From Desulfosudis oleivorans Hxd3 (lineage in GTDB: Bacteria; Desulfobacterota; Desulfobacteria; Desulfobacterales; Desulfosudaceae), in contig NC_009943.1 in assembly GCF_000018405.1 (NCBI RefSeq), positions 3,041,001 through 3,105,000 on the forward strand: 64,000 nucleotides of DNA, in the 5' to 3' direction. Shown piece after piece: positions 12,546 through 62,644 of this stretch. The notes under the pieces are model-generated. The model saw only the letters and a program-made list of their open reading frames with translations, did not search any database and had not been told where the DNA came from. The translations under genes were made by a program, and so were the position numbers. The number at the start of each line of letters is the position of its first letter. Position 1 is the first letter of the stretch.

Positions 12546-12823
12546 TAACCCGAATATTTCATAAAATTTTCCGACATTGGTTAATTTTCACATAAGATAC
12601 ATTGTCGGAATGGATTTCAGGTGTTTTTTTAACACAAACTGTTATGAACGACTTGAGGCCTTGTGTGCCAATTTTATGTCGAAAAATTTCACCCTTCGGG
12701 CGAGTCGCCTTGGTCCCGCCATCGGCGGGACTGTGTTGCGGGACATTCGCGGTAGATATACTACAGCTTCATGTCCCACGCCTTGCATCTGCGGCCAAAT
12801 CAACTCGTGAAATATCCGGGTTA
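12546..12823. repeat. Composite repeat element with CCCGAATATTT / AAATATCCGGG ends
   Basis: The 569-bp gap between the phospholipase D gene and hsp20 holds this element. Its left end resembles the left half of the 92-bp palindromic element at 20970. Its right end, read on the minus strand, matches the repeat at 60553 over about 50 bases (ACCCGGATATTTCACGAG, then GCCGCAGATGCAAGGCG), and a second shared block, ATCCCGCAACACAG-like, lies further in. Internal hairpins include TTCGGGCGAG and CCCGCCATCGGCGGG. The ORFs in it are short and unlike proteins. The rest of the gap is the hsp20 promoter region. Confidence 0.55.
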
Positions 12824-12852
12824 AGACTTTTTTTGATTCTGCTTTTCGTCTC

Positions 12853-31598: not shown

Positions 31599-32776
31599 AA
31601 GCGATCCGCGTCCTTTTTGATTCCCAGCGCCGACACTTTGAAAAAGGGGGCCGGTTCGCCCGGCTGGCGCCCCTGTTCGACGCCACCGAAACCTTCTTTT
31701 TTCTTCCCGGCATAGCCACGGTCCAGGCCCCTTACGTGCGCGACAGCATCGACCTGAAGCGGTTCATGAGCATGGTGATCCTGGCCCTGATGCCGCCGCT
31801 TTTTTTCGGCATTTACAACACCGGCTACCAGGCGTCAATGGCCGCCGGCCTCTCGCTCTCTTTGTTCGACGTGACCCTGAGGGGCCTGCGGATTGTGCTG
31901 CCCCTGATTATCGTCTCTTACGGCGTGGGCTTTTTCTGGGAACTGCTGTTTGCCTCGATACGAAAACATCCCATCAGCGAAGGGTTTCTGGTCACCGGCC
32001 TGCTGTTTCCGCTGACCCTGCCCCCGTCCATTCCGCTGTGGCAGGCGGCAGTGGGCATCTCCTTCGGCGTGGTGATCGGAAAAGAGATCTTCGGCGGCAC
32101 GGGCCGCAATATTTTTAATCCGGCCCTGACCGGCCGGGCCTTTCTCTTTTTCGCCTACCCGGCCCGCATGTCCGGCGACGCGGTGTGGGTGGCCGACCTG
32201 GCCACCGGCTCCGGGGTGGACGCCGTCACCGGGGCAACGCCCCTGGCCGTGGCAGCCCTGGCCCAGGCCGGAGAGAGCATAGTGGAAACTCTGGCAAATA
32301 CCGGGTTGCCGTGGCTGACCATGTTCCTGGGTAACTATCCCGGCAGCATCGGCGGCACATCGGCCCTCTGCTGCCTGGCCGGCGCGGCCCTGCTGATTGT
32401 CACCGGCATTGCCAGCTGGCGTATCATAATCGGCGGCGTTGCCGGCCTGCTGGCCACGGGCTGGCTGCTCACCCTGTTTGCCGGGCCCGGGGCCCATCCC
32501 TGGTTCGGGCTGAATCCGCTTTACCACCTTATCATGGGCGGGTTTGCCTTTGGCATCGTCTATATGGCCACCGACCCGGTCTCCGGGCCGGGCATGGAAA
32601 ACGCCCGGTGGGTTTACGGGTTTCTCATCGGCATGCTCACCGTGCTGATCCGGGTCTTCAACCCGGCCTACCCGGAGGGCATCATGCTGGCCATTCTGTT
32701 TATGAACCTGTTTGCCCCGCTGCTGGACCACGTGGCCGTTTCCTTTCGGTTGAAAAAGCGAGTGCCCAATGTCTGA
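31595..32776 (+). CDS. nqrB: Na+-NQR subunit B
   Basis: This integral membrane subunit has 393 residues and about ten transmembrane segments, and is part of the Na+ path and quinone side of NQR. The covalent-FMN motif is TGAT with Thr215. The start is the ATG overlapping the nqrA stop; the long open stretch upstream belongs to nqrA in another frame. Its 3' end was originally overlapped by nqrC. The last codons AAT GTC TGA form the left target duplication of a 151-bp inserted element, which still supplies the stop codon. Confidence 0.93.
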   Translation: MKAIRVLFDSQRRHFEKGGRFARLAPLFDATETFFFLPGIATVQAPYVRDSIDLKRFMSMVILALMPPLFFGIYNTGYQASMAAGLSLSLFDVTLRGLRIVLPLIIVSYGVGFFWELLFASIRKHPISEGFLVTGLLFPLTLPPSIPLWQAAVGISFGVVIGKEIFGGTGRNIFNPALTGRAFLFFAYPARMSGDAVWVADLATGSGVDAVTGATPLAVAALAQAGESIVETLANTGLPWLTMFLGNYPGSIGGTSALCCLAGAALLIVTGIASWRIIIGGVAGLLATGWLLTLFAGPGAHPWFGLNPLYHLIMGGFAFGIVYMATDPVSGPGMENARWVYGFLIGMLTVLIRVFNPAYPEGIMLAILFMNLFAPLLDHVAVSFRLKKRVPNV

Positions 32777-32925
32777 TGGCTTCGTAAAAAGCCCAATGTC
32801 TGCGTTGCGCTGCATCCCTCGTCACTGCGGCGTACGACAAGTACGCCTCATTCCTCGAGATTTGCGGCGCCTTGATCTTGAACTTTTTACTTTGCCATCC
32901 CAAATAGACTTTTTACGAGAGCATC
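32775..32925 (-). mobile_element. 151-bp MITE-like element between nqrB and nqrC, copy 2
   Basis: The ends GATGGCTTCGTAAAAAGCCC and, inverted, GATGCTCTCGTAAAAAGTC flank the same hairpin core as copies 1 and 3 (GGCGTAC-TTGTC-GTACGCC, here on the minus strand). Exact direct repeats AATGTCT lie at 32768-32774 and 32926-32932. The left repeat completes the nqrB stop codon and the right repeat holds the nqrC start codon. Confidence 0.9.
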
Positions 32926-34927: not shown

Positions 34928-34994
34928 GACGGCTTCGTAAAACGCCCAATTACTGTGTTGCGCGAATTCCTCGTCACTGCGGCGTGACAACATG
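34928..34994 (-). mobile_element. Truncated MITE-like element between nqrE and nqrF
   Basis: The left end GACGGCTTCGTAAAACGCCC and the block CCTCGTCACTGCGGCGT match the first 60 or so bases of the 150-bp family; the rest is missing. The flanks ACTATGA (34921-34927) and ACTATTGA (from 34995) are similar but not identical. Confidence 0.65.
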
Positions 34995-53635: not shown

Positions 53636-54424
53636 TTGGCCAAACGAAAAATCAAACTGGTCTCCTGGAACGTCAACGGCCTGCGGGCCGTGATGGGCAA
53701 GGGCTTTCTGGAAACGTTTAAAAACCTGGATGCCGACGTGGTCGGCATCCAGGAGACCAAACTCCAGGCCCCCCAGGTGACCGGCGACATGGCAAACATC
53801 GAGGGCTACACCTCGTACTGGGCCCATGCCACGACAAAAAAAGGCTACAGCGGGGTGGCCGCCTTTTCCCGGATGCCGGTCAAAAACGCGAAGACCGGCA
53901 TGGGCCGGGAGGAATACGACAACGAAGGCCGGATTGTCGAACTGGATCTTGGGGATTTTATTTTTTTCAACATCTACTTTCCCAACGGCCAGATGGGTGA
54001 AGACCGGTTGACCTACAAGCTGGACTTTTACCGCGACTTTTTCGCCTATGCCGACGCGTATCGCAAGCAGGGCCGAAGCCTGGTGATCTGCGGGGACTAC
54101 AACACGGCCCACAACGAGATTGACCTGAAAAACCCCAAAGCCAATGAAAACACATCGGGGTTTATGCGCATCGAGCGGGACTGGCTGGACAAAATCTCAG
54201 CCGATGGATATGTGGACACCTTTCGCCACCTTTACCCGGACACGGTCAAATATTCGTGGTGGACCTACCGGTTCAAGGCGCGGGAGCGGAACGTGGGGTG
54301 GCGCATCGACTACTTTTTCGTGACCGAAGACATTATATCCAAAGGCTGGCTCAAAGACGCCTTTATCGACAACACGGTTTATGGATCAGACCACTGCCCG
54401 GTGGGCCTGGTGCTGGAGATATAA
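53636..54424 (+). CDS. xth: Exodeoxyribonuclease III
   Basis: This AP endonuclease/3'-5' exonuclease of base-excision repair has 262 residues. Motifs are KLVSWNVNGLRA, QETKLQ (metal Glu), YFPNG, GDYNTAH, WRIDYFF and the C-terminal catalytic GSDHCPVGL. The start is a TTG with a GAGG site at 53636; longer frames upstream belong to the acyl-CoA ligase gene. Its last 41 bp recur 1.5 kb downstream (55949-55989), on the far side of an accessory cassette. The 3' end is overlapped in antisense by the Fic-type pseudogene. Confidence 0.94.
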   Translation: MAKRKIKLVSWNVNGLRAVMGKGFLETFKNLDADVVGIQETKLQAPQVTGDMANIEGYTSYWAHATTKKGYSGVAAFSRMPVKNAKTGMGREEYDNEGRIVELDLGDFIFFNIYFPNGQMGEDRLTYKLDFYRDFFAYADAYRKQGRSLVICGDYNTAHNEIDLKNPKANENTSGFMRIERDWLDKISADGYVDTFRHLYPDTVKYSWWTYRFKARERNVGWRIDYFFVTEDIISKGWLKDAFIDNTVYGSDHCPVGLVLEI

Positions 54425-55269
54425 AACTATTTTCCCTCTCCCGGCCAGCATATTCATAATCAGGCGGATCATCACATCCTTGTTGGCCGGATCAGACTCG
54501 GCCACCAGCAACGTGAGCGCGGCCAGGCCGATGTCGTTGATCACCGGCTCCCCCTGCCGGTTCAGCAGCCGGCCATTTTGGTTGAGAAAGTCGATAAAAA
54601 GGAAAGCCGCGCTGCGCTTGTTACCGTCCGCAAATGGATGGTTCTTGACGACAAAGTAAAGCAGGTGGGCCGCCTTGGACTCCAAGGTTGAATAGGCCGG
54701 TTCCCCGAATACCGTCTGGTCCAAGTTGCCCAGCAGCGCGGCCAGACTGTCTTTCCGCTCCAGGGCAAACAGGCCGGTTGCCTCCCCCCGCGCCCGCTGT
54801 CCGTGCTTAATTCAGGACTTTGGGCCGCCTTGCGCACCAGGGCCATGGCTGCTTCCAGTTCCCGGGCGTTTTGTTCAAACCGCTGCTGGTTCAGGGTCCA
54901 GCCACGGGTGAGGTGCTCGCGCAAAATGCGGGTGGCCCACTGGCGAAACTGCACCGCCCGCCGGGAGTTGACCCTATAACCAACCGAAAGAATGGCGTCC
55001 AGGTTGTAAAATTCAACCCGCCGCCGAACCTGCCGTTCACCCTCTATTTGAACTGTTGCATTTTTTGCAACAGTTGCCTGCCTGTCCAGTTCTCCTTCTT
55101 TATAAATATTATGAATATGCCTTGAAATCAAGTACTTATCGCGTACAAACAATTCGGCAAGCTGCTGCAAGCTCAGCCACACTGTATCGCGCCCGGTATC
55201 CAGCCGAACCTCCACCGGCTTATCCGCCTCCTGGTAAATAACAACCATTCCCTGGTTCTTGTTGTTCAT
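54386..55269 (-). pseudogene. RhuM-Fic/Doc family protein, broken by deletion and frameshift
   Basis: The 5' part (residues 1-175) is a RhuM-like domain (VWLSLQQLAELF, RRAVQFRQWATRILREHLTRGW). The 3' part is a Fic domain with its core HPFADGNKRSAAF, read in another frame. The two meet near 54791, where GRG leads directly to EATGLFALER; intact relatives have about 60-70 residues between them, so an internal deletion has also shifted the frame. The Fic core is intact. The gene starts in a 4-bp overlap with the ORF6N gene, and its 3' end runs into xth in antisense. Confidence 0.8.
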
Positions 55270-55820
55270 GTGGCCCTCGCCTTTTTCCCTCCGTTTTTCC
55301 GATAGGCGCGCTGTTTTTCTTTTACGGTAAAACCGATCTTCTTTTGGGGTTTGTGTTCAACCGCCAGAAGCTGATCCAGTGTTTCAAAAACAACGCGAAA
55401 GCGGTCCTCGGTCAGTTGTTTTAATTCCGACAGCTCTTTTCTCAGGTCTTCATTACTTAGAATCGCCTGGCGCAGTTTTGTAAATGTCCGCATAATCTGG
55501 ATATTAACGGCAATCGCCCGGTCGCTGTTTAAAACTCCGGACAACATAGCCACGCCCTGCTCGGTAAAGGCCATTGGCACATAGCGGCTGCCGCCCCAAC
55601 TTGAGGTCACAATTTGTGACCTCAAGACTTGAAATTCTTCCCTGGTAAGCTCAAACATGAAATCAGATGGGAAACGTTTCTTGTTGCGTTTCACAGCCTG
55701 CTTTAAAACCTTTGTTTCAACGCCGTAGAGCTCAGCAAGGTCCTTGTCCAACATTACCTTTGCCTGCCGGATCAGATATATTTTACCGGCAATCCTTTCT
55801 ACCGGCACAATGTCGTTCAT
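55266..55820 (-). CDS. ORF6N domain protein (KilA-N type)
   Basis: This 184-residue protein has an ORF6N DNA-binding domain (residues 1-100; IYLIRQAKVMLDKDLAELYGV, then MAFTEQGVAMLSGVL) of phage-antirepressor type, with a helical C terminus ending in a basic tail. It heads a two-gene operon with the broken RhuM-Fic gene (ATGA overlap). A decayed second copy lies at 57385-57699. Role: probably regulator of the cassette. Confidence 0.85.
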   Translation of the reverse strand: MNDIVPVERIAGKIYLIRQAKVMLDKDLAELYGVETKVLKQAVKRNKKRFPSDFMFELTREEFQVLRSQIVTSSWGGSRYVPMAFTEQGVAMLSGVLNSDRAIAVNIQIMRTFTKLRQAILSNEDLRKELSELKQLTEDRFRVVFETLDQLLAVEHKPQKKIGFTVKEKQRAYRKNGGKKARAT

Positions 55821-55900
55821 TATTTATCCTTTCCCTGGATTTCGATCAGACCAGATTTGCAGTTTTATATAATATACGCAAATTCACACCGGTTCATTGT

Positions 55901-55950
55901 CTAACCCGGATGTTTCAGGAGTTGATTCAGTCGCATATACAAGGCGCGGG
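55901..55950 (+). repeat. ACCCGGATATTTCACGAG-type repeat, copy
   Basis: TAACCCGGATGTTTCAGGAG and a following GCAAGGCGCGGGA-like block resemble the longer copies at 60553 and 12776-12823 (inverted). It directly precedes the duplicated xth end. Confidence 0.5.
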
Positions 55951-55989
55951 ATCAGACCACTGCTCAGTGGGACTGGTATTGGAAATATA
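55949..55989 (+). repeat. Duplicated 3' end of xth
   Basis: This 41-bp copy of xth 54383-54423 encodes GSDHCSVGLVLEI. It differs at six positions; apart from one Pro-to-Ser codon, the changes are synonymous. Confidence 0.8.
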
Positions 55990-56035
55990 GCTACGTAAAG
56001 CACCCGCCGGAAACTTTATTTTAGGGCCGTTAATT

Positions 56036-56764
56036 TTATTGTTTGTCAGTTGTTGCGATTCCTTTAATTTCGACTACACGTTTATCTTTATCAGACATCC
56101 TAATATCTATTTCCTGGCCTGTGTTCTCACCAAAATACTCTTGTGATGCTGCTACAAGTACAGGAAAAATACGTCGCAAATCTCCGCCCGAGCCCGAACT
56201 AGTTACTGTAGTCTTCCATAACTGAACCTCTTTTTCTGACTTTCTATACTCATCGAGATCCACAGCATCTAAAACGAAAAATCTAATATATTTTGTATAG
56301 GTTTTCGTGCGTGTTGTGCTGCCTTTAATGCCATAAGTGGGTGTATATGTGGTTGTACCAGAGTAAGTCCCATGGTTACCATATGTATTTAGAGTGCCCG
56401 TTGTTCGAGAGGAAGAGACTCCTGTTTGTCCCCAGATAGGAACCGAATATGTATGTTGATACTCTTGTGGGTCGCTAATACCATAAAAAAGAATAATTGC
56501 AACATTAGCCTCTTGTGGAGAATCCGAAGGCACAAACCCTTTTTTCGTAAGAGCACAATTTATATAAGTTGCAAACTCTTTAAACTGCAAGTCATCAACA
56601 GTTGTGTCCTTATTCCCAGGCAAAAGAACATACCTGTTCTTATCGGCTTTCATCCCACTAATTGAATCAATCTTTACTGCATAAAAATGTGATTGAGTGG
56701 TAACGCACCCCAACACCATGAAAAGGCTCAAGACGAACGTCATTATCGTTATTCTTGCTCTCAT
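56036..56764 (-). CDS. Hypothetical lipoprotein in AT-richer DNA
   Basis: This 242-residue protein has a signal peptide ending in the lipobox MVLGC. The mature part has a Ser/Thr/Gly/Tyr-rich block at about residues 125-160 and a C-terminal domain rich in charged residues. It loosely resembles DUF4136-like surface lipoproteins; I am not sure. The base composition is clearly more AT-rich than in the core genes, which suggests recent acquisition. It is not clearly linked to a neighbour. Confidence 0.6.
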   Translation of the reverse strand: MRARITIMTFVLSLFMVLGCVTTQSHFYAVKIDSISGMKADKNRYVLLPGNKDTTVDDLQFKEFATYINCALTKKGFVPSDSPQEANVAIILFYGISDPQEYQHTYSVPIWGQTGVSSSRTTGTLNTYGNHGTYSGTTTYTPTYGIKGSTTRTKTYTKYIRFFVLDAVDLDEYRKSEKEVQLWKTTVTSSGSGGDLRRIFPVLVAASQEYFGENTGQEIDIRMSDKDKRVVEIKGIATTDKQ

Positions 56765-57025
56765 TGATGACCTCCTGTTGTTGCCTCCTCATTGCCTGAT
56801 TCCACATATCCTGACATAACGACTCTTCCCTCAAAAGTAACCCCGGTACATAGGTAAAAATTGGTTGTGGCTTAAGACTATAAAAAATGACTTTTCTAAT
56901 AATATACTTGCGAATAATGCCGGTATTGAACTGGTACTAATAATCCAAGCCAATATTCTGTATGGAGTTTTTAACTTGTAGCTCCTTGGGAATTGATCCC
57001 CAAATAGACCTTCTTTGCCTGCCAC

Positions 57026-57277
57026 CTATGCTTCATTCTCTCCTGAATTTAGGCATCTCGCTCTGATAGTACTGCTGTCAGTGGCATTGGTTATACTAAA
57101 ATTAAACATAGAACTTTTATTTTCTACTACTCTAAGCTCTGTTGCGGGAAGCCAAGTGACAACAGTAGATAAGTCGCCTGGGTTAATAAGCCATTTCGAT
57201 CCATCCAGCAGAGCCATCTGGAATTTTTCATTGTCAATATCAACTTCCAGTAAAAGAATTTTACGTGGTTTTGGCAT
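57026..57277 (-). CDS. Small hypothetical protein, 83 residues
   Basis: It starts with MPKPRKILLLEVDIDNEKFQ after a GGGGTGG site and ends SGENEA. It is mixed alpha/beta, soluble and without a recognisable motif. It lies between the lipoprotein gene and the broken ORF6N copy, in AT-rich DNA. Confidence 0.4.
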   Translation of the reverse strand: MPKPRKILLLEVDIDNEKFQMALLDGSKWLINPGDLSTVVTWLPATELRVVENKSSMFNFSITNATDSSTIRARCLNSGENEA

Positions 57278-57384
57278 TTTGCCACCCCTGCCAATAATGG
57301 TTGTGTGTAACATGAAATGGTTAAGCCCATCCTCCTGACAAAAATTACCTTTCGTCGTCCTGAAATGTCAACAGGAAAGTCTGG

Positions 57385-57699
57385 TATGGCCCGTTTGCTG
57401 ATCAACACGCTGGAAAGCATGGCCACGCCCTGCTCCGTAAAAGCCATCGGCGGATATCTTAACCCCATTTTTTCGGAATTGGAGGTGCCAAATTAGCATC
57501 TCCAATCTTTCAATTCTTCTTTTGCCAGTTCAAACATAAAGTCATCAGGGAAACGGTCTATGTTGCGTCTGACCGCCCGCTTTAAATGGGAAGTCTCCAC
57601 CTCATACAGTCCGGCAAGGTCTCTGTCCAGCATCACTTTTACCCGTCGGATCACATATATTTTGCTGGTAATCCTTTCTACCACCACAATATCGTTCAT
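57385..57699 (-). pseudogene. Second ORF6N gene, broken by a stop codon and truncated
   Basis: The N terminus matches the ORF6N protein at 55266 ([20 protein letters not shown]). After DWRC a TAA stands where relatives have a Gln codon (CAA), and the same frame goes on with FGTSNSEKMGL and MAFTEQGVAMLSSVL. Homology is lost after KRAI, so the C terminus is missing as well. Confidence 0.75.
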
Positions 57700-57794
57700 T
57701 CCTCGTCCTTTCCCTGAATCTCGATCAGGCCGGGTTCACGCTTTTGTAAGCCATACGTGAGTTTAAGCCGGTCACTGTCTAAAGAATTCCGAAA

Positions 57795-57860
57795 CTATTG
57801 CCGGGCCGCATATTCATCCAGCAGCTGGCGAATCATTTTCTGGTACTGAGTGTTGTAACG
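57795..57860 (-). pseudogene. C-terminal remnant of a CopG/BrnA-like antitoxin
   Basis: Twenty-one residues (RYNTQYQKMIRQLLDEYAARQ region, stop at 57795) look like the last helix of a ribbon-helix-helix antitoxin. A stop codon lies just upstream in the same frame. No toxin partner remains. The rest of the 57700-57990 gap shows nothing. Confidence 0.4.
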
Positions 57861-57990
57861 TGCGTCTCACAGACTACAAAAAGAATGCGGGCTGTGGGCA
57901 ATTAAACTTTTAATGACGAAGTCGCAACAGCCAAAGCCATCCACCTTTTGTGGCTCTGTGCAGGCTCTCATTAAACCGTATAGCGAAAGA

Positions 57991-58905
57991 TCACCATGTC
58001 CTGTATGGGACATTCGAGACTATGATCTCAGGATCATGCAACGGCGGACTGTACTTTGCTAGAAGGAAGCGCACATTCCGTTGAGCACGCTCTGGTTCTG
58101 GGCATGGACCAACATGAACCGACTCAAGCCGAATAGTCGGATTGCCTTGCCCACTGCCATCTCGAAGCGAAAAACGGAAATGGGACGCAATTGTTGAGAT
58201 TCCTGGACGAAAATCCATCCTTGAGACGTCTATCGGTTTAGAGACTAAGCGCCATTCATCCTCACCCGCAAACCCGGGATGCTTGAAGAGAGAAGCGTAC
58301 CGATTGATATGGTAGGCGAAGCTCCTGCCATTCTGTTCAAGCTTAAACCTCTCGAGTTCGTTTGTTTGCGGATGTGCTGTCTCCCACTCAATGTTTTGGG
58401 CTAGGTCTGCGTTGATCAGTGAAAGAAGAACACGTTCCTGCTCGCTCTTATCGTATATACAGGCGGCGAGGATAAAGTCTTGGGCTTTTGCAAACTCTTT
58501 CAGCGCTGAGCCTTTTACATCAATCGAATAGCCGGTTCCGGCTCCGCTATATGCTCGCCACTGTGAGAGATCGTCAATACGCGACGACCATGAAGAAACG
58601 CAGATATTAATTCCAGCCTTGAGCACTGCATTGCGTAGGTAACCAAGATGTCTTTTCTTTCGCTCGTCCGACTCATCCTCGATGCGTGATGCAATTAGCG
58701 ATTCGGCTAGTTCTTGTGCGTATTCAAATTCACTCCGATCATTTAAGTCGGTTACACTCGTAGCCCAAATTTCGCCAGTGGAAATAATGCCCAGCAATCC
58801 ATGTTGATTCGTATAGTGACATAGCAGCACCGGTGGTTCACGTTCGATGTGTTGCTGTAGCTCGTCTGTTACGTAGAGATGACACGATTTAGAGTTGTGA
58901 ACCAT
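57991..58905 (-). CDS. DUF2971 domain protein
   Basis: This 304-residue protein of the DUF2971 family has the pattern LCHYTNQHGLLGI, IWATSVTDLNDRSEFEY and SSRIDDLSQWRAYSGAGTGYSI, followed by a C-terminal EDEWRLV segment. Members occur in accessory and defence-type regions. No enzymatic role is established to my knowledge. It is AT-richer than the core genes and stands alone. Confidence 0.82.
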   Translation of the reverse strand: MVHNSKSCHLYVTDELQQHIEREPPVLLCHYTNQHGLLGIISTGEIWATSVTDLNDRSEFEYAQELAESLIASRIEDESDERKKRHLGYLRNAVLKAGINICVSSWSSRIDDLSQWRAYSGAGTGYSIDVKGSALKEFAKAQDFILAACIYDKSEQERVLLSLINADLAQNIEWETAHPQTNELERFKLEQNGRSFAYHINRYASLFKHPGFAGEDEWRLVSKPIDVSRMDFRPGISTIASHFRFSLRDGSGQGNPTIRLESVHVGPCPEPERAQRNVRFLLAKYSPPLHDPEIIVSNVPYRTW

Positions 58906-59241
58906 TGAACCTGCAGGCCTCTTGTAATTGTAAGTTGCGGTTTAACGTAGCGAGGTCAGCGGTGGGTGGAAGCCATCCACTGAAATGCCTTCGTTAGAGC
59001 GTTCTTTTCCCCCGATTTCCAATCGAGCCTATTTTTATTTAATTGAAATGTCAACGGAAAATCGTTTTTTTGACTATACATCATGCCGCCCAATTTGTGA
59101 CGGGAAAGACAATAACAATAAAACCTGTGCCCTTACTTTTACGAAAACCAGTTGGGGTGTTTTGTAAGCCAGGGGGCAACGATGGCGCGGATGGTGTCTT
59201 TTACGGCGGGGGCCAGGTAGAAGCGGGGAAAGAGCAGGTTG
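58906..59241. other. Gap between the DUF2971 gene and higA
   Basis: It contains a 148-bp duplicated gene end (59129-59276, running into higA). The first 220 bp hold nothing recognisable. Confidence 0.5.
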
Positions 59242-59276
59242 TCATCCTGGGCGATGACTACTTGGGCTGCGGCCTG
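59129..59276. repeat. Duplicated 3' end of the radical SAM gene at 60714
   Basis: About 148 bp match 60703-60851, including the stop codon of the radical SAM gene and 11 bp beyond it, with roughly a dozen differences. The matching protein tail is DTIRAIVAPWLTKHPNWFS. Confidence 0.9.
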
Positions 59277-59592
59277 TCGAATTCGTAGCGGGCCTTTTGG
59301 CCGGAATAATGCGCTGCTTGATATCCGGCCCTATTTTACGTTTCATTACGCGAAGGTCATACTCGGACTGAAGGTTCAGCCAGAACTGGGCCTCCACCCC
59401 GAAATAGCGCTCCAGCCAAAGGGCCGTGTCGACGGAGATGCTTCTTTTGCCGTTTACAATCTCGCTGATTCTGTTCGGAGGAACGGCCAGGTCCCGGGAG
59501 AGCTGATTGATACTGATCTGCATCGGCTCCATAAAGTCTTCACGCAGGATTTCACCCGGTACAATGGGATCAAGGAAATCTTTATTGCTCAT
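59242..59592 (-). CDS. higA: HigA-family antitoxin (3' end altered)
   Basis: This 116-residue XRE-type antitoxin has PGEILREDFMEPM, the helix-turn-helix SINQLSRDLAVPPNRISEIV and the family ending DTALWLERYFGVEAQFWL. The last 14 or so residues are read from the duplicated radical SAM fragment in another frame, so the natural end is lost. It is preceded by a fragment of higB, so it would be an orphan antitoxin. Confidence 0.87.
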   Translation of the reverse strand: MSNKDFLDPIVPGEILREDFMEPMQISINQLSRDLAVPPNRISEIVNGKRSISVDTALWLERYFGVEAQFWLNLQSEYDLRVMKRKIGPDIKQRIIPAKRPATNSTGRSPSSHRPG

Positions 59593-59601
59593 TTTTTCAC
59601 C

Positions 59602-59688
59602 TCAATGATAATCGACGATAGCCACATTAAAGGCATTGCCGTCCTGCCATTCAAAGCATACCCGCCACTGTTTATTGATGCTGCGGGT
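59602..59688 (-). pseudogene. HigB toxin remnant (C terminus only)
   Basis: SINKQWRVCFEWQDGNAF and VAIVDYH, followed by a stop 9 bp before higA, are the last 25 or so residues of a RelE-type HigB toxin (about 92 residues when complete). The 5' part is replaced by the 3' end of the gene at 59688. Confidence 0.75.
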
Positions 59689-60359
59689 TAGTAGTCCATC
59701 AGTTTCTGCGCCAGCCGGTGAAGATCCGGGTTTGCCAGGGCGGAAACTTTTTTCTTTACGGAACGCGAATAATATTCCTTTTCGGTTTTGGTCAGCGGTT
59801 CGCCCTGCAGTTTCTTTTGAAACAGTTCCTTTTGTTTTGGAGAGAACAGTTGGGACAACGCATATTCAAGAGACAGGTTCCCATATTGTTCCTTCATCTG
59901 TTTTGTTTTCTCGGCATCCTGCACAAAATAATTGTTAAATGTTTCTTTTAAGCGTGAAGGGTCAAACTGTTTGTTTCCGAACGAAACAGCCTTATTCCGG
60001 ACCAGGGCGTTTTTCAGCTCCTGCAGACGGTCCAGATCCGGGCGTGAAAGACTTTTTTTAAATTGCCGCGCCCACACAAAAGACAAATGATGATGCTGAC
60101 ACAACGCCAACGACAATAACGACAGAAAGTGCAACGTTTTTCGTTCTTCACTTTTTGTTAAATTCTTCAGGATCTGATCGTAATCAAAAGACGGTTCTTT
60201 AGCAGCATTAACCAGCAAAACGGGGAAGCCTTCCCACAATCGCGTATCTTTGCTTTTTACAACTTCGGCAAGTGTTTTATTAACATCAAAATCCGCCCTT
60301 GTTTCCATAAGAGCGAAACCCAGGCGGTTTAATTTTTCTAATAATTCTTTTTCAGCCAT
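59688..60359 (-). CDS. Hypothetical helical protein, unknown
   Basis: This 223-residue, mostly helical, Lys/Leu-rich protein has HFLSLLSLALCQHHHLSF near residue 85 and a coiled-coil-like C-terminal half (about 130-215). It is AT-richer than the core genes. A strong AGGAGGAG site precedes the ATG at 60359, which I prefer to upstream in-frame starts. Its 3' end abuts the truncated higB. No family is recognised. The gap 60360-60713 holds no gene but the repeat at 60553. Confidence 0.6.
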   Translation of the reverse strand: MAEKELLEKLNRLGFALMETRADFDVNKTLAEVVKSKDTRLWEGFPVLLVNAAKEPSFDYDQILKNLTKSEERKTLHFLSLLSLALCQHHHLSFVWARQFKKSLSRPDLDRLQELKNALVRNKAVSFGNKQFDPSRLKETFNNYFVQDAEKTKQMKEQYGNLSLEYALSQLFSPKQKELFQKKLQGEPLTKTEKEYYSRSVKKKVSALANPDLHRLAQKLMDY

Positions 60360-60552
60360 GCCGTTTCTCCTCCTGGAGGATATCTGGTTTCCATCCATAA
60401 ATGGTCTTTCCCTCATTTCTGGATTGGAAACACTTTTTCGTGCCCTCATAACAGGTGGATGGGCACTAGCTACATAAAATTGTATCTATAGATACATATT
60501 TTTGTATAAAAACGTACAATATTAATTTAGTCCTGTCAAGAAATTTGATTTT

Positions 60553-60602
60553 TAACCCGGATATTTCACGAGTTGCTTTGGCCGCAGATGCAAGGCGCGG
60601 GA
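60553..60602 (+). repeat. ACCCGGATATTTCACGAG-type repeat
   Basis: TAACCCGGATATTTCACGAG, then GGCCGCAGATGCAAGGCG, matches 12776-12823 (inverted) almost exactly. A second shared block, ATATCCCGCAACACAG, lies at about 60680. It sits just downstream of the radical SAM gene end. Confidence 0.7.
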
Positions 60603-60713
60603 CAAAATATTGATGGGCAACTTCTTGTGGTTGTCCATCAAGGGCGAACACAAGGTTCGCCCCTACCGTATATCCGCAAATATCCCGCAACACAGCAGAT
60701 GCGCCCCTTACTT

Positions 60714-61994
60714 TTACGAAAACCAGTTGGGGTGTTTTGTAAGCCAGGGGGCAACGATGGCGCGGATGGTGTCTTTTACGGCGGGGGCCATGTAGAAGCG
60801 GGGAAACAGCAGGGTGTCATCCGGGGCGATGATCCCTTGGGCCACGGCCTGGCGGGCCAGTTGGGTTTCCGGGTAGATGCGAATGCCGGAGGTAATTTTT
60901 GTAGCATCCAGGTTCAGGGATTCGACAAAGGCCAGGCTTTCCTGGATGGTCTGTTCGGTTTCGCCGGGGCCGCCCAGCAGCAGGAACCCGGTCTGCTTGA
61001 TATTGAACTGCTTTAACGCGGCGGAAACCGCCCGCACATCGTCAGGGGTAAATTTTTTGTTAAAGGCCCGCAGCATTTGAGCAGACCCGCTTTCAAACCC
61101 CAGGCTCACCTCCTTGCATCCGGCACTCGCCATTTTTTCGGCCAGGTCATTGTCAATCTTCCATGGATAGACAATGCAGCGCCAGGAGAGGTTCAGGTTT
61201 TTTTCAATGATGCCGTCGCACAGGGCCTTTGCATAGGAAGGGGGAATGTTGAAGGTGTTGTCCACAAAAAAGAGATGGGAAAAGCCGGCCTGTCTGTAGG
61301 CCGCCAGGGTATCAATTACCCGGGAAAGGTCCCGCTTGCGGGTGGTCCTGCCCTCTATGGATGCGGTGGAGCAGTAGCTGCAATCCATGGGGCAGCCCCG
61401 CCGGGTTTGAAACGGAACCCACACAGGCGCGTCACCGGTTTCAGAGGGCGCGAACACCTGGTCTTCGGGCAGGGGCATGGGATAATCGTTGATGTGACAG
61501 TCCGGGTCCAGGGGAGCCGCGGGTTTGCGGCCCGGCAGGTAAAGGCCGGGGATGGCAGCCGGGCTTTTATTGTTTTCAAGATGGGCCAGCAGGGAGACAA
61601 AGGGCTTTTCTCCGGGGCCGCGAATGCCCCTGTCCGCGCCAAGATAGGAAAGGGCCGCCTCGGGAAAGATGCTGTACCCTGCCCCGCCAAGCACGATGGG
61701 GGCGGATGTCTGCTTTTTGCAGGCGGCGATCAGGTCCCTGACCGGCTCCAGCAAAAACCGGGCAGGCTCCATGGTCTGGTCGTCGATGTTGCGCACCGAG
61801 ATGCCGATCACCCTGGGATGAAACGTTTCAATGGCCTGAAGGGCTTCCGGTATCAGCCGGTCTTTGTCCAGGGTGTTGACCACCATGGCCTGGTGGCCGG
61901 CGGCCCGCACGGCCCGGGCAATGCAGGAGAGGCCCAGGGGCAGGACCGGCATGTTGATGGTTTCGGTGTTGGCCGAGATAAGCAGGACGTTCAT
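60714..61994 (-). CDS. Cobalamin-binding-domain radical SAM protein
   Basis: This 426-residue protein has an N-terminal B12-binding-like domain (residues 1-150, with GGAGYSIFPEAAL) and a radical SAM core with RGCPMDCSYC (C-x3-C-x2-C) at about residue 205. The C-terminal third has GFESGSAQMLRAFNKKF and LLLGGPGET, as in the methyltransferase/oxidase group. No canonical B12 His motif (DxHxxG) is visible, so cobalamin may not bind. Substrate unknown. Its 3' end is duplicated at 59129. Confidence 0.85.
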   Translation of the reverse strand: MNVLLISANTETINMPVLPLGLSCIARAVRAAGHQAMVVNTLDKDRLIPEALQAIETFHPRVIGISVRNIDDQTMEPARFLLEPVRDLIAACKKQTSAPIVLGGAGYSIFPEAALSYLGADRGIRGPGEKPFVSLLAHLENNKSPAAIPGLYLPGRKPAAPLDPDCHINDYPMPLPEDQVFAPSETGDAPVWVPFQTRRGCPMDCSYCSTASIEGRTTRKRDLSRVIDTLAAYRQAGFSHLFFVDNTFNIPPSYAKALCDGIIEKNLNLSWRCIVYPWKIDNDLAEKMASAGCKEVSLGFESGSAQMLRAFNKKFTPDDVRAVSAALKQFNIKQTGFLLLGGPGETEQTIQESLAFVESLNLDATKITSGIRIYPETQLARQAVAQGIIAPDDTLLFPRFYMAPAVKDTIRAIVAPWLTKHPNWFS

Positions 61995-62073
61995 GGTGGT
62001 ACGGGTCCATTTATGGGTCTTGCCGGATCAAATCCGGGGGGACGGGAAAAGGCCGGACATCCTGGGAAACGGG

Positions 62074-62104
62074 CACGGGCAAACCGCTTGCGGCTTTGCC
62101 CGTG
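62074..62104. repeat. Strong hairpin, CACGGGCAAA/TTTGCCCGTG
   Basis: A ten-pair stem with an inner CCGC/GCGG pairing. It lacks a T-run, so it is not a typical terminator. A weaker related hairpin lies at 62705-62731. Confidence 0.6.
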
Positions 62105-62194
62105 ACACCCGTCCTGTTTTGATGTGGATAAAGAATATGAAAAAAGGCCGATACGGTTCACGTTCGGTTGCGTCATTCCTGCCGGGTGAAGGCG

Positions 62195-62644
62195 TTACCC
62201 TTCTGATATGACAAGATTCTCAATGCCGTTTTCGGCAAACTCGTCCTCGTATTTTTCCATCAGGTCTTCTGCTTCAGTGATTCTGTCCCAGGGCGACATT
62301 TCCTGGACCACTTCGGCCCCTCTTTCCCTGATCAGATCTCTTTCGGCCAGACGGCTGCACAACTGTTCCCAGAAACAGAAGTCTTCAAACTCGTCGATAA
62401 ACCGCGCGTCGGTTTCAGCCGCCTCATACTCGGCCGTGGGAAAATACTCTTTTTCTTCCGCGTCATACTGCACAAGGTTGTCGAACCCGAAGTCTTTGGC
62501 ATGGGACAGCAGCTTCTGCTCAAGCGCGACATAGGGCTCGGTTTCAGAATCATCCTCCAGTTTATAGGAGTTCATGACCCAGTCCGAAATGGACAGGATG
62601 TCCAGCAGCAGCCGATACTCTTCTTTTGTGATATCAATTTTCAT
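62195..62644 (-). CDS. Acidic hypothetical protein, 149 residues
   Basis: A very acidic, helical, cytosolic protein (MKIDITKEEYRLLLDIL start, then several Glu/Asp-rich stretches). No cysteine motif or membrane segment is present, and no family is recognised. It lies between a radical SAM gene and pyrF and has a hairpin on each side. Confidence 0.68.
   Translation of the reverse strand: MKIDITKEEYRLLLDILSISDWVMNSYKLEDDSETEPYVALEQKLLSHAKDFGFDNLVQYDAEEKEYFPTAEYEAAETDARFIDEFEDFCFWEQLCSRLAERDLIRERGAEVVQEMSPWDRITEAEDLMEKYEDEFAENGIENLVISEG

Follow-up and report, generated by a model that had tools for sequence, protein, structure and literature searches.

How small toxin-antitoxin and defence modules that carry no transposase or integrase enter chromosomes is a general question, for which the closest described precedent comes from restriction-modification systems: some of these insert with long, variable target duplications of about 100 bp and are mobile without any known element (PMC3874152), and the H. 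pylori insertion case of Nobusato et al. 2000 is recounted in passages of PMC1643837 and PMC3031569. Here we analyse a stretch of 64,000 nucleotides of the Desulfosudis oleivorans Hxd3 chromosome (NC_009943.1, positions 3,041,001 to 3,105,000; hereinafter, the window, to which coordinates refer unless stated otherwise), in which the 3' end of a B12-binding radical SAM gene and that of the exonuclease III gene xth each recur as a stray copy on the far side of a group of accessory genes, namely, a higA antitoxin gene, a higB stump and the orphan gene ORF253 in the first case, and RhuM/Fic-type and ORF6N-domain genes in the second. Gene-end copies of this kind are present at two further loci of the same genome, at one of which a relative lacks the insert. 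We consider it about an even call that, at all three loci, accessory DNA was inserted between convergent 3' ends with a long target duplication, a known, little-studied route.

As in the restriction-modification insertions, a module able to enforce its own maintenance lies between direct copies of the target that are long and variable, on the order of 100 bp (150 bp for the radical SAM gene, 42 bp for xth, 329 bp for a TetR-family gene, 97 bp for a transglutaminase gene and an exact core of 37 bp for an ABC-2 permease gene), and the unit needs no transposase. Unlike in those systems, the inserted genes are of toxin-antitoxin or defence type or of other kinds, each target is the 3' end of a gene in a convergent pair, truncated copies of a miniature inverted-repeat transposable element (MITE) are found at the two window junctions, and no strain pair shows the event at the window locus; there are no restriction-modification genes in the two window brackets, which hold the genes named above, and elsewhere the insert includes an AbiE pair. 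Gene-end replacement by integrating elements is well known, for example, that by prophage e14 at icd, and in such integration, too, the gene end is duplicated while the gene stays intact; the present loci differ in that the target changes each time, an integrase is missing and the two radical SAM copies share no exact core at their interior boundary. Homology-facilitated illegitimate recombination (PMC3240628), with homology on one side and illegitimate joining on the other, likewise can leave partial gene duplications, but it requires a donor with a homologous gene end, and the copies at the TetR locus described here are almost identical. Merodiploidy by transformation (PMC3784515) also yields duplications flanked by repeats that steer alternative pairing, but these span ~100-900 kb and require repeats on both sides. 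For integron cassettes and group II intron RNA, an Rfam scan of 54000-62200 returned one sub-threshold chance match only, attC motifs as such not having been tested. In the open-access literature, we found no description of toxin-antitoxin genes inserted between convergent genes with duplication of a gene 3' end, which is no proof of absence.

The duplicated radical SAM gene end

The intact radical SAM gene (60714..61994, minus strand, 426 codons) matches Pfam Radical_SAM (5e-20) and B12-binding (6e-14), its best NCBIfam model being TIGR04072, under the cut-off of that model. Its 3' end (60705..60854, minus strand) recurs as a direct repeat at 59130..59279 (minus strand), with 10 mismatches over 150 ungapped bp and an E-value of 2e-59 that rules out a chance repeat. 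The repeat comprises the final 141 bp of the gene, including the stop at 60714, and 9 bp beyond; the preliminary description of this region, made from the sequence without database searches, had recognized the duplication and put its extent at about 148 bp, with 11 bp past the stop. Of the 156 candidates from a whole-genome search with 59100-60900 as the query, 40 were scored, and none of these was a further copy of this gene end. The two copies are identical over the 86 bp on the stop side, and all 10 mismatches fall within the 64 bp that lie deepest in the gene, a clustering that, were the mismatches evenly spread, would by our own arithmetic arise with a probability of about (64/150)^10 = 2e-4. 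The encoded amino acid is altered in six of the eight changed codons, with the loss, at one of them, of a glycine that most aligned relatives keep.

In the direction of the gene, the intact end is followed by a truncated MITE, a second dispersed repeat, ORF253, the end of higB, higA and the stray gene end. The higA gene (59242..59592, minus strand), which had been named in the preliminary description, matches TIGR02607 over nearly the whole model (E 3e-30), and its final 38 bp, stop included, lie within the stray radical SAM copy. The higB remnant noted earlier (59602..59688, minus strand) is indeed the end of a HigB-like toxin, namely, the final 28 codons and the stop, with a weak match that covers only positions 68-91 of the 91 in Pfam HigB-like_toxin (E 2e-4; 22.2 bits, under the curated cut-off of 27). 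ORF253 (59688..60359, minus strand) encodes a protein of ~223 amino acids, its homologues starting near 60359; the listed open reading frame (ORF) starts at 60449. In agreement with its initial designation as an unknown gene, it has no family match in Pfam, PADLOC or NCBIfam at the thresholds used. Upstream of ORF253 lies the second dispersed repeat (60384..60462), which is found at five other places in the genome and at one in the relative G001. The truncated MITE (60553..60702, plus strand), a long form that keeps its left end and has lost ~45 bp of its right end, adjoins the intact radical SAM end.

Relatives of ORF253 are present in 53 of the 291 genomes searched in the order. In eight of the nine neighbourhoods that were read, the gene comes second, in operons, after a nucleotidyltransferase gene or a fragment of one, which is near full size in L146, L148, L150, L151 and L152 and shortened in L147, L149 and L153; the one such nucleotidyltransferase that was tested matches DUF6036. 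The ninth neighbourhood, from G002, a genome of the same family, is without the nucleotidyltransferase, as is the window. Judging by this gene order, ORF253 and the DUF6036-type nucleotidyltransferase (e.g. L146 6502-7774) possibly form an undescribed toxin-antitoxin or defence pair. Because neither module, higA or ORF253, retains its putative toxin, the radical SAM bracket is a remnant, a mosaic of broken modules and not a working cassette. The toxin-antitoxin-like cassette of the preliminary description thus has a near complete antitoxin gene and no intact unit: the toxin of the HigBA pair is only a stump, and ORF253 stands without its nucleotidyltransferase.

The xth cassette and the dispersed repeats

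The xth gene (plus strand) and the radical SAM gene (minus strand) are convergent, and the entire 6.3 kb between them is accessory. The 3' end of the intact xth gene, which ends at 54424, occupies 54383..54424 (plus strand) and recurs at 55949..55990 (plus strand) with 7 differences in 42 bp, mostly silent; 15 bp are identical at the interior boundary. At the seven differing sites, the stray end agrees with the outgroup G002 at three, and so does the intact end. The cassette contains a RhuM/Fic-type gene split in two frames (54386..55269, minus strand; 54562-55269 and 54386-54724) that match Pfam RhuM and Fic and, in PADLOC PDC-S23, positions 4-159 and 233-324 of 327, the second frame continuing into the xth end. 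It is accompanied by a Pfam-supported ORF6N-domain gene (55266..55820, minus strand), an 85% DNA-identical paralogue of which is part of the cassette at 939.9 kb, and by a truncated MITE (55902..55950, plus strand) that consists of the first 49-50 bp of the element. In both window cassettes, the order along the plus strand is the same, that is, gene-end copy, minus-strand genes, truncated MITE in plus orientation and gene-end copy, so that the repetition of the layout at xth claimed earlier is real; the two cases differ in length (42 bp for xth vs 150 bp for the radical SAM gene) and in the position of the MITE stump, which adjoins the stray copy at xth and the intact gene in the radical SAM case. 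Between the two stray ends, a middle segment (55991..59129) contains a DUF4136-like lipoprotein gene, a broken ORF6N gene and a DUF2971 gene; the second, more broken ORF6N gene of the window is at 57386-57699.

The dispersed repeats at 60553-60702 and 55902-55950 had been missed in the preliminary description. Both belong to a MITE family with ends of the form CCCGGATATTTCA(C/T)GA, the members of which are 266-276 bp long, along with a shorter family of ~196 bp with another middle part; matches were found at 47 places in 1.154 Mb. Both window copies lack their right ends, and each stops where a gene-end copy starts. The family also includes window 12772-12824 and solo 26-bp palindromes built from both ends, and it is present in the relatives G001 and G002. 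Elsewhere in the window, a 66-bp repeat (32775-32840 and 34928-34990) stands directly after the stops of two different genes ~2.1 kb apart.

Recurrence elsewhere in the genome

The search for further cases covered 1,954,930 of the 3,944,167 bases (49.6%) in 100 stretches, a non-random sample in which some stretches were chosen around MITE copies and the window; genes were called with a simple home-made ORF caller based on hexamer scores instead of a standard gene finder. Direct repeats were collected if their copies were separated by at least 150 bp, lay within 10 kb of each other and contained a gene 3' end, the counterpart not being a full paralogue. The 11 resulting rows represent 10 distinct pairs, of which five, at three loci including the window, were kept after curation, namely, the ends of the radical SAM, xth, TetR-family, ABC-2 permease and transglutaminase genes. 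The TetR copy has 4 mismatches in 329 bp (98.8% identity), 313 bp of which are coding, and the transglutaminase copy is 86% identical. The rejected candidates were two pairs at 702 kb, with a low-score ORF in a repeat-rich protein region, one pair at 947779, with a 41-bp match at E 9e-4, and two pairs at 2.23 Mb composed of ATGAATGATGA-type repeats. A 5'-end control search gave four raw pairs (a MITE, a short low-score ORF, a repeat protein and a gene-internal fragment), judged by eye not to be comparable. The flanking genes are convergent at all three loci, vs 142 of the 1208 pairs of neighbouring predicted genes sampled. The single mechanism of cassette acquisition at gene 3' ends that the preliminary description had suggested is partly supported by the three further cases at two further loci, with the reservation that the two window cases themselves differ and that the radical SAM cassette is not an intact unit.

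The clearest and freshest case in the sample is that of AbiE (938.5-944.0 kb; L172 3545-8978). Here, an ABC permease gene (plus strand) and a TetR gene (minus strand) converge on a segment that contains the paralogue of the xth-cassette ORF6N gene, the TetR-end copy, AbiEii, AbiEi and the ABC-end copy; the PADLOC models for the AbiEi/AbiEii pair are matched over nearly their full length. At the third locus (157.1-161.3 kb; L164), an amidohydrolase gene (plus strand) and the transglutaminase gene (minus strand) are convergent, with 4128 bp between them and the stray transglutaminase end inside. In the relative G001, the same two genes end at neighbouring bases, with no insert and no second copy of the gene end; therefore, DNA was either gained here or lost in G001. 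A MITE end also lies near 157.33 kb at this locus.

In all four brackets examined, the frame of the last cassette gene crosses the junction into target sequence, by 38 bp in higA, 21 bp in AbiEii and 16 bp in a phospholipid-methyltransferase (PEMT)-like gene, the fourth being the Fic frame that enters the xth end. In HigA, AbiEii and Fic, the match extends nearly to the end of the family model, so little has been lost from these proteins. The pattern could result either from selection for function or from a mechanism that makes use of gene ends.

The surroundings of the target genes in relatives are as follows. The closest orthologues of the radical SAM protein are 57% identical, and among 43 loci of its relatives (19 with flanks of no more than 1.5 kb), compared with 16 window proteins, there was no tblastn match to higA, ORF253, RhuM, ORF6N, DUF4136 or DUF2971 beside the gene. 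In the relative L074, xth and the radical SAM gene converge, with several other genes between them. G002 has xth without the cassette, beside other genes, and no radical SAM orthologue (best match 30%).

Possible routes of insertion and their implications

Under the explanation that we favour, accessory DNA, that is, toxin-antitoxin or defence-type modules and other genes, would enter between the 3' ends of convergent core genes, and the target, 37-329 bp long, would be duplicated on insertion; where the duplicated target is a gene's own end, one copy would keep the gene whole and the other would be left as a stray tail beyond the insert. Duplication and insertion would then be a single event, and the molecular step might be staggered breakage or repair synthesis; classical, Ku-dependent end joining is unlikely because Ku was not found in the genome. 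The bias toward 3' ends probably reflects survivorship and would require no targeting because an insertion that copies the end of a gene leaves the gene whole. The radical SAM event would be old enough for the loss of the toxin and of the ORF253 partner and for partial decay of the stray tail, so that the window case appears to be the older one.

Several observations weigh against insertion with target duplication. No empty site was seen for xth, the radical SAM gene or the ABC/TetR pair; of 58 genomes searched, two were of the same family and only the D. oleivorans genome itself was of the same genus. The ABC permease and TetR genes are not together in G001 or G002, and in G002 separate contigs carry the amidohydrolase and transglutaminase genes. 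The order of the ABC end, TetR copy, ABC copy and TetR end is interleaved rather than a simple bracket, which would fit a target of ~490 bp (ABC end, 122-bp gap and TetR end) of which one copy lies on either side of the AbiE pair, the ORF6N part having perhaps been added to, or exchanged in, one of the two. The transglutaminase bracket is not simple either, with a lipase-like gene between the amidohydrolase gene and the stray end. Plain decay does not explain why the 10 radical SAM mismatches are all on one side; our guess is partial gene conversion of the stop side. Finally, repeats with at least 10 other places in the genome occur, in 100-bp windows, at 3 of 14 junctions vs 178 of 1300 gene ends, that is, without overall excess.

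An unlikely competing explanation is template switching or tandem duplication, whereby a fork or break repair recopied a nearby gene end, the accessory DNA being present already or arriving separately, and later deletions left only the tail. The direct joining of a truncated MITE to a gene-end copy at both window junctions, in a region full of broken genes, is what such a process might produce, and of the 14 truncated or unclear MITE ends that were tested, only the two in these cassettes adjoin a local copy of 39 bp or more. However, the other 12 adjoin no such copy (two have weak matches of 18 and 22 bp, and 10 none), the TetR copy and insert at 940-943 kb would require an insertion exactly between duplicates, and G001 has neither insert nor second copy at the transglutaminase locus. 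It is notable that the MITE abuts exactly in both window cassettes, but the junction counts do not show repeats to have a general role, and the MITE as a general agent of the insertions was dropped on these counts and those of the MITE ends. Alternatively, and we think improbably, both stray ends could have arrived at once by homology-facilitated illegitimate recombination, on a donor fragment that extended from the xth end of another lineage via the middle segment to its radical SAM end and that was taken up into the intergenic region of the resident chromosome. The nested order of xth end, first cassette, stray xth end, middle segment, stray radical SAM end, second cassette and radical SAM end is compatible with such an import, as are the mostly silent xth differences and the partial agreement of the stray xth end with G002, which the intact end shares, and recombination of this type is documented in competent bacteria and in E. 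coli conjugation (PMC3240628). By contrast, the radical SAM differences are one-sided and mostly change amino acids, including the conserved glycine, and the nearly identical TetR copy is left unaccounted for; the silent bias at xth, considered as proof of a foreign allele, proved weak once the GC-to-AT bias was allowed for (p ~0.09 by our estimate).

The target duplication that we favour fits better than a site-specific element or chance. A decayed element whose tyrosine recombinase used the gene end as its attachment site and brought a replacement end is highly improbable: the genome has 9 Phage_integrase matches, at least one of them XerD-like by eye, but there is no integrase among the ORFs of either window bracket, the radical SAM copies match worst at their interior boundary, where strand exchange is expected, and the target is different at every locus. 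For chance or an assembly artefact, to which we attach negligible probability, only the repeat content of the genome speaks, against the E-value of the repeat, the 10 bases at which the copies differ and the single contig of the genome. A quite improbable variant of the favoured insertion is a route independent of the module type, in which units that end at, or within a few codons of, a gene stop were joined, with a long target copy, to convergent 3' ends repeatedly in one genome, the joined end looking as if it were a transcript or gene end and dispersed MITE ends being frequent partners on the opposite side.

If accessory DNA was indeed inserted with long target duplications, this genome would harbour several insertions of this kind that differ in age and are each recognizable by a gene-end copy, and would thereby bear on the entry of small toxin-antitoxin and defence modules into chromosomes. 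The arrangement of a partial gene 3' end, accessory genes and the whole gene provides a signature that can be searched for in any set of genomes, and it comes with a warning for annotation, namely, that a stray gene end next to a locus of this kind is no gene. A promising locus at which to seek the empty site in sister strains is that of AbiE at 940-943 kb, where the case is nearly fresh.

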